Part shown: one piece after another, positions 38,354 through 42,094 of the stretch
Position numbering within the stretch: position 1 is the first letter of the stretch
Layout: every line of letters starts with the position of its first letter
DNA from: Actinomycetes bacterium
GTDB taxonomy: Bacteria > Actinomycetota > Thermoleophilia > BMS3ABIN01
Direction: 5' to 3'
Length of the DNA: 47,636 bases
NCBI GenBank assembly: GCA_021791195.1
Contig: JAJYXB010000002.1
Location: 1 to 47,636, forward strand
Program-made: the position numbers and the translations under genes
The notes under the pieces: model-generated
The model's database searches: none
What the model saw: the letters and a program-made list of their open reading frames with translations, nothing else
Told to the model about the DNA's origin: nothing

Positions 38354-39853
38354 ATGACCGGCACTTTTGATGAAGTTTTCGAAAGCAGTCAACTGCCGCT
38401 GCATCCGCCGCACAGCGAGGCGATGTACCAGACGCTGTTCGAGCATGCGGGCGACGCCATCCTGGTCGTCCATGGGCAGACCGGCAAGATCGTGGACCAC
38501 AACCCTACGGCTGTGCAGCTGACCGGATTCAGCGACGGCGAGCTCCACGGCATGAGCCTGAGCGATATCTGGCTTCCTGACGAACCGGCGCCGGCCGACG
38601 CGACGCTGCTGCCCGGCCTGGCGCCAGGCATCGCCAGAGGCAGCCACCGGCGCAAAAACGGCGCTCTGCTGCCAGTCGAAGTTAATTCCCGCCGCATCGA
38701 GTTCCGCGGTGAGGAGCTCCTGCTGCTGATCGTCCGCGACCTCAGCAGCCACCATGCCCAGGCAAAAGGAACGGCCGGAAAGCGCGACGCCAAAGCCGTG
38801 GCCCAGGCCCGCAGGGACATCGAGGAACTGGCACAGTCAAAAGAGGACCTGGCCATCCTGTTCGACATCTCGTCGGCAATCAGCAAAGAGATCGAGCTGG
38901 GCAAACTGCTCGACCAGGCGCTGGCGATGATCACGCATCTGGGATTGTTTGACGTGCAGCGCAAGGGTGCTATATTTCTGGTCGAAAACGAGCGGCTGAC
39001 ACTCGCCGCCCACCTCGGGCTCGACGAGGCTTTCTGCGCGGCACACCAGAGTCTGAAAACCGGCGACTGCCTCTGCGGGCTCGTGGCCAGCACCGGCACG
39101 CAGCTGGTCTCGGGGAATATCGCCAAGGACAAGCGGCATGACATCACTTACCCCGGCATGATCCCGCACGGGCATGCCATCGTGCCGCTGAGCACCGGCG
39201 GCAACACCGTGGGCGTGCTTTGCCTCTTCCTGCCGCCCAACAAGGGCGTGGACGAGCGCAAGCTGCGGCTGTTGATGGCGATCGGCAACCAGCTGGCGGT
39301 GGCGATCGAGAAGATCAATCTCTATCAGAAGACCAAAAAGCTGTCGCTGCACGATCCGCTGACCGGTCTGGCCAACCGCCATTTCATGAACATCAGCCTG
39401 AAGAACAACATGGCCGGCGCCAAGCGCTCCGGCCGGCCTTTTTCCCTGATCCTGCTGGACCTGGATCATTTCAAGCAGTATAACGACAGCTTTGGCCACG
39501 TGGCGGGGGACAAGCTGCTGTCGGATGTGGGCAGCCTGATGAGCCGTGAGGTGCGCGAGGTGGACCTGATCGCCCGTTATGGCGGTGAGGAATTCCTGAT
39601 CATCCTGCCCGATACCGGCGAGCAGGAAGCGCTGGAAGTAGCCGAGCGCATCCGCGACTCGATCATCAGCTACGAGTTCAGGTACTCGCGCCAGCGGCCG
39701 ACGACGCGCATCACCGTCAGCGCCGGCGTGGCGACGTACGAAAGTTCGATCTCAGAGGTCGATGTGCTGGTAGCGCGCGCAGACGCGGCGCTGTACCGCG
39801 CCAAGGAAAACGGCCGCAACCAGGTGCTGCCCTGGCTGACCGGCGGCCATTAG
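38354..39853 (+). CDS. Diguanylate cyclase with PAS and GAF domains
   Basis: This enzyme makes cyclic di-GMP from two GTP. A PAS domain (about residues 22-130) is joined by a short coil to a GAF domain (about 165-320) and a C-terminal GGDEF domain. The active site is GGEEF (410-414) and the product-inhibition site RxxD is REVD (401-404), so feedback control is expected. There is no membrane segment; it should be a cytosolic sensor. No ribosome site precedes the ATG, but TAAGAT ends 7 bases upstream, so it may be leaderless. The GAF domain has Cys residues (CLCG) that could bind a ligand or metal. The 262 bases before it hold only the divergent DUF948 leader. Confidence 0.93.
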   Translation: MTGTFDEVFESSQLPLHPPHSEAMYQTLFEHAGDAILVVHGQTGKIVDHNPTAVQLTGFSDGELHGMSLSDIWLPDEPAPADATLLPGLAPGIARGSHRRKNGALLPVEVNSRRIEFRGEELLLLIVRDLSSHHAQAKGTAGKRDAKAVAQARRDIEELAQSKEDLAILFDISSAISKEIELGKLLDQALAMITHLGLFDVQRKGAIFLVENERLTLAAHLGLDEAFCAAHQSLKTGDCLCGLVASTGTQLVSGNIAKDKRHDITYPGMIPHGHAIVPLSTGGNTVGVLCLFLPPNKGVDERKLRLLMAIGNQLAVAIEKINLYQKTKKLSLHDPLTGLANRHFMNISLKNNMAGAKRSGRPFSLILLDLDHFKQYNDSFGHVAGDKLLSDVGSLMSREVREVDLIARYGGEEFLIILPDTGEQEALEVAERIRDSIISYEFRYSRQRPTTRITVSAGVATYESSISEVDVLVARADAALYRAKENGRNQVLPWLTGGH

Positions 39854-41427
39854 GCGGGTTCCACCGGCAGGCCGCGATCAGTCGACCGGATCACTCCGCC
39901 CGCGGCCACTGTCTCGCCGCGGTAAAGCACGGCTGACTGCCCCGGCGCCACTCCCATCACCGGCTCTTCGAGCTCCAGCTTCCAGGTATCGCCGGCAACT
40001 GCCAGACGTGCCGGCACCGGCGGCGAGTTATATCTCAGCTGCACCAGCAGACTCTCACCCTCATCCACCGGGACAAACCGGTTGACGCCGCCCATCTCCA
40101 CCAGGCGCACAGCAAGCTCGGCGTGCGTGCCCGCCACGACGACATTGCGCTCCGGGATGGTGCCAAGCACGTACAGCGGTTCCGGAGCGCCGCCGCCCAG
40201 GCCGCGGCGCTGGCCGACAGTATAGTCCTGATACCCCTGGTGAAAACCGATCCTGAGGCCGCTCGCATCGACGATCTCGCCCCTGCCGGGAAGCGGCAGC
40301 TTGTGCTGATTCATGAAATCCCGCAGGAAGATGCGGTAGTCGCCGCCGGGGATGAAGCAGATGTCCTGGCTTTCGGGCTGCTCGCTGGTCACCAGCCCGG
40401 CTGAGCGCGCCAGCGCGCGCGTCTCTTCCTTGCGGTATTCGCCCAGCGGAAAGCGGATCCGGGCCAGCGCTCCCGGATCGAGCCCCCAGAGCATGTAGCT
40501 CTGATCCTTGACGGCGTCAGCGGCGCGCGCCAGCACCGGACCGGCGCCGGCCTGGCGGACCCGCGCGTAATGGCCGGTGGCAACGCTGTCCGCGCCCAGC
40601 CGCGCCGCCAGCTCCAGCAGCAGGGGAAAGCGGAAGCTGCCGTTGCACGCCGTGCATGGATTGGGCGTCCTGCCACTGAGGTATTCCCTGGCGAAGCCCT
40701 CCACCACCTCCTCACGGAACCGCACCGAACAGTCCACGGTCAGATGCGGCAGCCCCAGCTGGTGGCACACCGCGCGCGCGTCCCGCTCCGCCGCCGGCGA
40801 GCAGCAGCTGGCGGCCGTTTCCACCGCGCCGCCAGGAGCGCTCCAGAGACGCATGGTGACCCCCAGCACCCGGGCACCGGCCCGCTGTTCGAGCAGGCAG
40901 GCAGCCGAGCTGTCCACTCCGCCGCTCATCGCCACCAGCACGATGTCACCGGCACCGGCGGCGATCCCCGGCAGCGTGCCCCGGGTAGCGGCATCGGTCA
41001 GGGCCGCGTGCAGCGCATCGACCGCAAACCCGGCCGCGGCGGCGATCAGCCGCCCGCTGGCGGAACGGGGGGCGGCACCGGCATCTGCGGCTCGCCCGGT
41101 ATCCGCCGCATGGCCGCCGCTTCGTGGCGCCGCGGCCACTCCGGAGGTCTCTGCCCCGCCCAGCGCGCCGGCGACCGCCGGCGCTGACAGCGCCGCGGCC
41201 TCCCACCAGCTCCTGCCGGTCACCAGGGTGGTGAGCAGGCTTCCGGCAGCAATGGCGGCTCTGGAACCAGAAGCCTCAAAGGCTGCGCGGGCAATGACTC
41301 GGTCCTCAAAAGCGATCTGGATGCGAATCAGCGCGCCGCATCCTTCGTCGCCGGCGCTACCCGAAGCGTCCGCCGCGATCAGCCCCCGGTTGCGGGGATG
41401 GTGAAAATGTTCATCCAGAAGGTTCAT
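39850..41427 (-). CDS. mnmA: IscU/NifU-like domain fused to tRNA 2-thiouridylase MnmA
   Basis: MnmA thiolates U34 of tRNA-Lys, tRNA-Glu and tRNA-Gln. The C-terminal part (from about residue 160) is a full MnmA: PP-loop SGGVDSS (169-175), CxxC at 258/261 (NPCTACN) and catalytic Cys357 in ESQDICFI. Residues 1-85 match IscU/NifU scaffolds (HFHHPRNRG, then GCG at 29-31 and a SRAAIAAGS block) and residues 125-145 resemble the IscU C-terminal helix. Only one of three IscU cysteines (Cys30) remains; the others are Ser55 and an Ala near 132, and the cluster Asp is Ala32. An Ala/Gly-rich linker (about 85-125) replaces the middle. The frame is continuous. It overlaps the cyclase stop by 4 bases (convergent). 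Confidence 0.9.
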   Translation of the reverse strand: MNLLDEHFHHPRNRGLIAADASGSAGDEGCGALIRIQIAFEDRVIARAAFEASGSRAAIAAGSLLTTLVTGRSWWEAAALSAPAVAGALGGAETSGVAAAPRSGGHAADTGRAADAGAAPRSASGRLIAAAAGFAVDALHAALTDAATRGTLPGIAAGAGDIVLVAMSGGVDSSAACLLEQRAGARVLGVTMRLWSAPGGAVETAASCCSPAAERDARAVCHQLGLPHLTVDCSVRFREEVVEGFAREYLSGRTPNPCTACNGSFRFPLLLELAARLGADSVATGHYARVRQAGAGPVLARAADAVKDQSYMLWGLDPGALARIRFPLGEYRKEETRALARSAGLVTSEQPESQDICFIPGGDYRIFLRDFMNQHKLPLPGRGEIVDASGLRIGFHQGYQDYTVGQRRGLGGGAPEPLYVLGTIPERNVVVAGTHAELAVRLVEMGGVNRFVPVDEGESLLVQLRYNSPPVPARLAVAGDTWKLELEEPVMGVAPGQSAVLYRGETVAAGGVIRSTDRGLPVEPA

Positions 41428-41581: not shown

Positions 41582-42094
41582 TCAGCCCCGCATGATCTCA
41601 CTGACTCCCTGCTCCAGCGATTTTTCATCCACGAATCCGGACCAGGCGCGCTGCACCTGCCTGTGTTTGTTGATCATGATGACGCTGGGGGGTGAATCGA
41701 CTTTAAGCAGCGAGGCAAGATCGCCGTAGCCTTCGGCGTCAGTGTAGAGATAAACATAAAAATCAACGTTACCCTTGTAGCGATTCTGCAGCGACTGGAT
41801 CGAGGAACGGACCTGGTTGTCATCGGTCGTACCTGTCATGTAGAAGAGAACTACCACGGGCCGGTTGCTTGCCAGGGATGAACGGAAGTCTTTCGGAGAC
41901 TCATCGGTGGGCGAGATCACGGTGCCGATCAGCGACTCGGGCTTGTTGGTAGAGATTGCCGCCTTGGAGGTGCTGGTGGCGCTCGGCGCCGCCGGAGCCG
42001 CGCTTTGCTGGTCGCTGCCGCCGCAGGCCGAAAATACAACAGCCACGACCGCTAGCAACAGCATCGTGGCTGAAATCCTAAGGAATCTGCTCAT
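41582..42094 (-). CDS. Lipoprotein with thioredoxin-like fold lacking CxxC
   Basis: This 170-residue protein has a signal peptide and the lipobox VVFSAC (Cys24), so it is an extracytoplasmic lipoprotein. An Ala/Ser/Thr linker follows. The rest looks like a thioredoxin fold: a strand VVVLFYM, a helix with SSIQSLQNRY, a strand VDFYVYLYTD, a cis-Pro type SPPSVIMINK and a final helix. At the active-site position, where CxxC is expected, it has TGTTD, so it is unlikely to be a redox enzyme. AGGAAAGG precedes the ATG. It begins 22 bases after the 6S RNA and may be read from the same promoter. Confidence 0.8.
   Translation of the reverse strand: MSRFLRISATMLLLAVVAVVFSACGGSDQQSAAPAAPSATSTSKAAISTNKPESLIGTVISPTDESPKDFRSSLASNRPVVVLFYMTGTTDDNQVRSSIQSLQNRYKGNVDFYVYLYTDAEGYGDLASLLKVDSPPSVIMINKHRQVQRAWSGFVDEKSLEQGVSEIMRG

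Follow-up and report, generated by a model that had tools for sequence, protein, structure and literature searches.

A conserved IscU-like domain with a single remaining scaffold cysteine is fused to the tRNA thiolase MnmA in a family of Thermoleophilia

In contig JAJYXB010000002.1 of an Actinomycetes bacterium belonging to the class Thermoleophilia (assembly GCA_021791195.1), of which we analyzed a stretch of 47,636 nucleotides (hereafter, the window), a single gene encodes an IscU/NifU-like domain joined to the N-terminus of MnmA, the tRNA U34 2-thiouridylase. The N-terminal domain is predicted to keep the IscU fold and is under purifying selection, and it has lost four of the five residues that make up the cluster site of IscU. 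The one that remains, Cys30, occupies the acceptor position of IscU and SufU, and we therefore favor, with a probability of about 0.5, a reading in which an operon-derived IscU has become a cis-acting, SufU- or SufE-like persulfide acceptor or dock for MnmA, with sulfur passing from IscS through Cys30 to MnmA.

The fusion is a continuous open reading frame of 525 residues with an ATG start and no frame break. Pfam places NifU_N (PF01592) at residues 6-91 (E = 3.8e-15; 56.6 bits, cut-off 22), and the MnmA domains PF03054, PF20259 and PF20258 all score above their Pfam cut-offs; SufE (PF02657) is not among the protein's Pfam matches. A full MnmA spans residues 163-513 above curated cut-offs, passing the NCBIfam equivalogs NF001138 (349.4 bits versus 284) and TIGR00420 (274.1 versus 237). 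The IscU/NifU equivalog cut-offs were missed (55.4 versus 187.9 for TIGR03419, 42.7 versus 192.4 for TIGR01999). By sequence (phmmer), the solved structures closest to the N-terminal domain are NifU/IscU proteins, including A. fulgidus IscU (4eb5).

An AlphaFold (AF2) model, built with 51 related fusions, has a mean pLDDT of 91.3 and a pTM of 0.91, and its only stretch below 50 is residues 102-115. In a fold search, residues 1-150 of the predicted model form a complete IscU fold, aligning by VIA-align with human ISCU2 (8pk8_D; Z 18.8, 1.5 Å over 117 residues) and with A. fulgidus IscU (4eb5_C; Z 19.0), and the MnmA half (residues 159-522) matches 2hma (Z 42.0) and the E. coli MnmA-tRNA complex (2det_A; Z 41.3). 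A preliminary description of the locus had proposed that about 145 N-terminal residues resemble IscU and that an Ala/Gly linker interrupts them. Both points are borne out, as the domain covers residues 1-149, the linker (about 93-122) is predicted to be disordered with a pLDDT of about 42-63, and the last IscU helix follows it. The Pfam, phmmer and fold-search matches rule out an ordinary MnmA with a chance low-complexity extension. Nor is the fusion a product of sequencing error or a scrambled frame, because the same unbroken reading frame recurs in all 18 other genomes of the family.

By motif and equivalog tests, the C-terminal half is a C-type (CC-CxxC-C) MnmA. Its PP-loop, SGGVDS at residues 168-173, is conserved in the 51 fusions, and the CxxC pair and catalytic cysteine that had been reported from the sequence are present as Cys258-x-x-Cys261 and Cys357.

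To follow the scaffold ligands, we aligned 95 domains, 69 of them fused and 26 free or split; the rows are related, and the counts are thus not independent events. In the window's protein, Cys30-Gly31 falls at IscU Cys37, Asp39 is replaced by Ala32, Cys63 by Ser55, and the His105-Cys106 pair by Ala-Ala. This agrees with the preliminary description, which had named Cys30 as the only cluster cysteine left and had recorded the loss of the second cysteine and the His-Cys pair; it was also right that an aspartate is gone, but wrong to set it next to Cys30, since the position lies two residues on. The whole family (f1, 19 genomes including the window's) follows the same pattern, with Cys and Gly in 19/19 and Asp39, Cys63, His105 and Cys106 each in 0/19. 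Of the 69 fused domains taken together, 68 have Cys37, 49 have Cys63 and 44 have Asp39, and none has both His105 and Cys106. Fused domains of families f7, f9, f2, f23, f6 and f10 retain Cys37-Asp39-Cys63-His105, those of f11, f54, f8 and most f5 members retain Cys37-Asp39-Cys63-Cys106, that of f12 has Cys37 alone, as in f1, and those of f16 retain Cys63 and mostly Cys37. Free IscU/NifU genes of the same genomes have all five ligands, except for SufU-type ones and one f23 copy.

Of the IscU cluster site (three cysteines, Asp39 and His105), the window's domain thus has only the Cys37 equivalent. The Cys/Asp/Cys ligands that hold zinc in SufU are also broken in its family (Asp39 to Ala, Cys63 to Ser), whereas most other fused lineages keep both residues. 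Lacking both sets, the domain was filed as neither IscU nor SufU. By sequence position, Cys30-Gly31 does occupy the site of the cysteine in the CGD loop of SufU, with Ala in place of the Asp. Families f23 and f5 contradict a link between retained zinc ligands and SufS-type desulfurases, and that idea was abandoned.

The word "relic" used in the preliminary description is misleading if it is taken to mean decay. Mean pairwise identity within the family is 0.47 in residues 1-92, 0.62 in residues 129-152, 0.58 in MnmA and 0.20 in the linker. For those close pairs that allowed the calculation, dN/dS is 0.15-0.37 for residues 1-92 versus 0.17-0.23 for MnmA, which rules out a decaying relic and shows that the N-terminal domain is under purifying selection like that on MnmA. 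Of the 92 positions, 11 are invariant, Cys30 among them, and no other column has a cysteine in more than two family members.

We looked for the same architecture in relatives and found it in 18/18 other genomes of the family, although two copies are cut by contig ends. A profile of the fused domain, run against 299 Thermoleophilia genomes, reaches the MnmA PP-loop in f1, f2, f5, f7 and f9 among the matches listed, and direct reading of open reading frames adds f6, f8, f10, f11 and f12. In 216 genomes from the phylum, matches over the full length of the fused domain also occurred in f23, f16 and f54 and were confirmed by their reading frames. The architecture is therefore widespread in Thermoleophilia, running through most of the class, and occurs in further groups of the phylum; it had been called uncommon, which holds against the textbook MnmA but not within these groups. 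Outside the phylum, where no systematic search was made, MnmA loci of Clostridia, Gemmatimonadetes and others matched solely at the start of MnmA.

Relatives with an ordinary free MnmA and an unconserved N-terminal domain, which would have refuted the preliminary reading, did not turn up within the family; departures from this pattern were seen only in distant relatives. Family f3 has a canonical nifU and mnmA as separate genes, and one f5 genome (G037) has lost the N-terminal domain. In f4, all 19 of the 19 aligned MnmA genes begin with a conserved 75-residue remnant without the Cys-bearing helix (for example, L052:7771-8000), in which cysteines are nearly always absent and those at the Cys37 and Cys63 positions always so. 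It aligns with the other Thermoleophilia fusions by hhalign at 97.2% probability (E = 4.6e-11; shuffled columns, at most 0.8%) and is predicted to form a three-stranded sheet and a helix. For any function that depends on cysteine, this remnant offers a clean control provided by nature. In the two f4 genomes with listed coordinates, matches to the fused-domain profile are free SufU genes, and it was the profile comparison that revealed the MnmA remnant.

Gene order in relatives suggests where the domain came from. The fusion is immediately preceded by a desulfurase gene in 11/11 loci of f23, 2/2 of f8 and 1/1 of f11, and in f3 and f29 separate genes run iscS-nifU-mnmA, the f3 copies at the syntenic place. 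The order hisS-aspS-thioredoxin-[desulfurase-scaffold]-mnmA-DUF948-sigma-alaS is common to f1, f3 and f5 and partly to f23, where aspS is reversed. Because f3 and f23 run trx-iscS-(nifU)-mnmA, the thioredoxin-fold lipoprotein gene upstream of the window's fusion would mark the former place of iscS. From this order, we infer that the scaffold most simply derives from the neighboring gene and that the desulfurase gene has since gone from the f1 locus, so that an operon IscU would be the source of the N-terminal domain. In a tree of the short domain, f1 forms one clade (support 100) and free IscUs stand apart (support 80), but many deep forks are open, so that the fusion may have arisen once or several times. 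The exception in the tree is a free f23 copy placed among the fused domains of its own family. This NifU-like gene (G323:C6:95300-96300; L201) has the same Cys106 loss as the fused f23 domains and is probably a secondary split of the fusion.

The window's genome has other sulfur genes. A canonical iscS-iscU pair (133612-135298) lies in a tusA-iscS-iscU locus at G000:C25:133285-135298, which rules out the fused domain as the organism's only scaffold; the IscS of this locus is the likely donor to the fusion. SufE has no match anywhere in the genome. Further desulfurases are one of the TIGR01977 type and one ergothioneine-synthase-like fusion. The latter, on contig C15, is the f1 desulfurase most like some operonic ones and was considered as a partner dedicated to the fusion, an idea rejected because this desulfurase forms the C-terminal portion of a molybdopterin-ergothioneine-synthase-like protein, a 1222-residue molybdopterin oxidoreductase-cysteine desulfurase fusion (G000:C15; L129:6040-9708, minus strand). 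A histidine-specific methyltransferase gene (PF10017; L129:4966-6033, minus strand) follows it, an arrangement that matches the metallopterin-dependent ergothioneine synthase of Caldithrix, described from anaerobes (PMC9516567). Desulfurase frames of similar size occur in G002, G009, G013 and G015.

In the mechanism that we favor, a CxxC-C MnmA would have gained an operonic IscU (iscS-iscU-mnmA) at its N-terminus early in the history of this part of the Actinomycetota, and the fused domain would have ceased to assemble clusters. A cysteine desulfurase, most probably the free IscS encoded in the tusA-iscS-iscU locus, would serve as docking partner of the IscU-fold domain. Its sulfane sulfur would pass to Cys30 to form a persulfide, and the linker, being flexible, would allow the domain to bring this sulfur to the active site of MnmA. 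The receiving site may be Cys357 or a putative [4Fe-4S] cluster held by Cys258, Cys261 and Cys357, from which the sulfur would be placed on adenylated U34. Work on related proteins is consistent with this role for the cysteine, as, of the ligand cysteines of IscU, the exposed Cys37 lies closest to IscS Cys328 and has been proposed as the first acceptor (PMC2854127), and the equivalent SufU Cys40 bears a persulfide (PMC10216065). CxxC-C MnmA enzymes are considered to require a [4Fe-4S] cluster, and their sulfur route to U34 is open (PMC8584467, PMC11784392); the Thermus enzyme has such a cluster and works only anaerobically (PMC8584467). The persulfide relay or desulfurase dock raised in the preliminary description is thus the best-supported of its ideas, judged from the sequence evidence of Cys30 in 19/19 genomes, its match to the SufU acceptor position and the desulfurase genes that adjoin the fusion elsewhere. 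A wider version, in which IscU was captured by its operon neighbor and reduced separately in several lineages to a single-cysteine persulfide shuttle on a cluster-type MnmA, is tentative, at somewhat less than even odds.

Several observations weigh against an acceptor role for Cys30. The well-conserved Cys-free remnant of f4 is the strongest argument against a purely cysteine-based function; because it and one f16 member lack Cys37, the role of the domain there cannot be a Cys37 relay. The first helix of IscU is needed for IscS binding in E. coli (PMC2854127), and this helix is eroded in three relatives (G004, G005 and G006), in which Cys30 is still present. A desulfurase gene is found neither beside the window's fusion nor in the examined stretches of its 18 family relatives. 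The genome's five TusA genes, one directly upstream of iscS, offer another sulfur route, and in B. subtilis sulfur passes straight from YrvO to MnmA without a carrier (PMC5372745).

Some of these points favor the main rival, in which the domain is a docking or structural module that recruits the desulfurase or stabilizes MnmA or its tRNA complex, sulfur goes from IscS to the MnmA cysteines directly, and Cys30 is kept for packing or another minor reason. The folded f4 remnant, with its sheet and last helix, and the carrier-free YrvO-MnmA pair both fit such a module, and the pTM of the predicted model is compatible with a fixed placement of the domain on MnmA. Against it, Cys30 is strictly kept in f1 while Asp39, Cys63, His105 and Cys106 have all been replaced, and the three relatives with eroded helices lost the docking element and not the cysteine. 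We consider a pure docking or structural role unlikely, if still a serious contender, and it may combine with an acceptor role. A neutral leftover of an old fusion, kept only through the continuity of the reading frame, would explain why ligand loss varies among lineages and why G037 could dispense with the whole domain; with selection equal to that on MnmA, an invariant Cys30-Gly31 and an intact predicted fold, it is largely refuted by dN/dS and has the smallest probability of the readings considered here.

Two further readings give the domain a metal. In most fused lineages, four potential ligands survive (C37, D39, C63 and either H105 or C106), and these could bind zinc, as SufU does through its Cys/Asp/Cys set (PMC10216065), and control sulfur flow, leaving f1 with a redox or regulatory cysteine. 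Because the window's family has no second ligand, however, a SufU-like metal site is impossible there, and we regard the zinc reading as improbable. Still more doubtful is that the [4Fe-4S] cluster of the CxxC-C MnmA is assembled or delivered by the domain, or that Cys30 is the fourth ligand of that cluster. The cluster of the Thermus enzyme (PMC8584467) is in its favor, and the order iscS-iscU-mnmA is compatible with a locus that originally supplied clusters in addition to sulfur, but no fused domain has both His105 and Cys106, the separate iscS-iscU pair serves general assembly, and, with only one of five ligand positions left, cluster assembly by the N-terminal domain is unsupported.

The features of the locus are collected in Table 1. 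On the opposite strand, a PAS-GAF-GGDEF diguanylate cyclase gene (38354-39853) meets the fusion stop to stop with an overlap of 4 bases (39850-39853), and an opposite-strand GGDEF gene adjoins the fusion in most, though not all, genomes of the family.

Table 1. Features of the fusion gene and its upstream neighbor in the window
Feature	Position	Strand	Basis
Fused IscU/NifU-N-like domain + MnmA (tRNA U34 2-thiouridylase) gene, 525 aa	39850..41427	-	Pfam, NCBIfam, AF2
Core of the IscU fold (residues 1-92): first helix, sheet of three strands, helices at 56-69, 74-77, 82-93	41152..41427	-	PF01592, VIA-align
Cys30 codon (IscU Cys37 / SufU Cys40-41 position), sole scaffold cysteine left	41338..41340	-	19/19 family, 68/69 fused domains
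Ala/Gly low-complexity linker, residues 93-128, in place of IscU LPPVK/His-Cys loop	41044..41151	-	pLDDT, family identity
Last IscU helix, residues 123-149, conserved F-A-[IV]-[ED]-A-L-H-x-A-L-x-D, runs into MnmA	40981..41061	-	Model, family identity
MnmA catalytic, central and C-terminal domains, residues 159-518	39874..40953	-	NF001138, fold search
CC pair Cys208-Cys209 of C-type MnmA	40801..40806	-	Nearly invariant in alignment of fusions
MnmA CxxC, Cys258 and Cys261 (NPCTACN)	40645..40656	-	Invariant in 51 aligned fusions
MnmA catalytic Cys357 (SQDICFIP), E. coli Cys199 position	40357..40359	-	Invariant in 51 aligned fusions
Thioredoxin-fold lipoprotein gene upstream of fusion	41582..42094	-	Weak thioredoxin match (E 2e-4, below cut-off); synteny

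We found no description of an IscU/NifU-MnmA fusion in the open-access literature searched, although one may exist elsewhere. The nearest published idea is the Plasmodium falciparum MnmA, whose N-terminal SufE-like domain is proposed, from modelling only, to pass sulfur from SufS to MnmA (PMC10219651); it too sets a sulfur-acceptor-like domain N-terminal to MnmA, but that domain is SufE-like and belongs to a eukaryotic organelle, while the fusion described here is IscU-like, bacterial and has a traceable operon context. IscU/NifU-N proteins (NifU_clost, TIGR03419; PF01592) share with the window's domain the full fold, the cysteine of the CG motif at Cys37 and, in relatives, the operon link to iscS. 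The window's domain differs from them in its lost ligands, the linker in place of the LPPVK loop, the fusion itself and scores that fall far short of the IscU/NifU equivalog cut-offs. SufU, a zinc-dependent sulfurtransferase, has the same fold and a persulfide-acceptor cysteine at the same site (Cys40/41), but the window's family has no zinc ligands and would act in cis on MnmA and not on SufBCD. The protein has all the CC-CxxC-C cysteines of C-type MnmA of the Thermus thermophilus kind (PMC8584467, PMC11784392), to which it adds the IscU-like domain; the cluster carried by the Thermus enzyme is putative here. Finally, desulfurase genes adjoin mnmA in f23, f8, f11, f3 and f29, as in YrvO-MnmA of B. 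subtilis and other iscS-mnmA neighbors (PMC5372745), but there sulfur reaches MnmA directly, whereas here we propose an interposed acceptor domain, and the desulfurase gene is gone from the f1 locus.

Whether MnmA sulfur travels as a persulfide or via an iron-sulfur cluster is disputed (PMC11784392). Here the donor side and the enzyme share one chain, in which just one candidate cysteine is conserved, so that sulfur routing can be tested directly with C30 mutants of this protein, and the relatives form a ready series of controls, from separate genes through fused domains with four ligands or one cysteine to fused domains free of cysteine. In this family, the cluster site of a scaffold protein has been lost while its fold and its acceptor-position cysteine remain under selection. 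If the acceptor reading is true, the fusion would amount to an experiment of nature that removed the scaffold function and left the sulfur-acceptor function in place.

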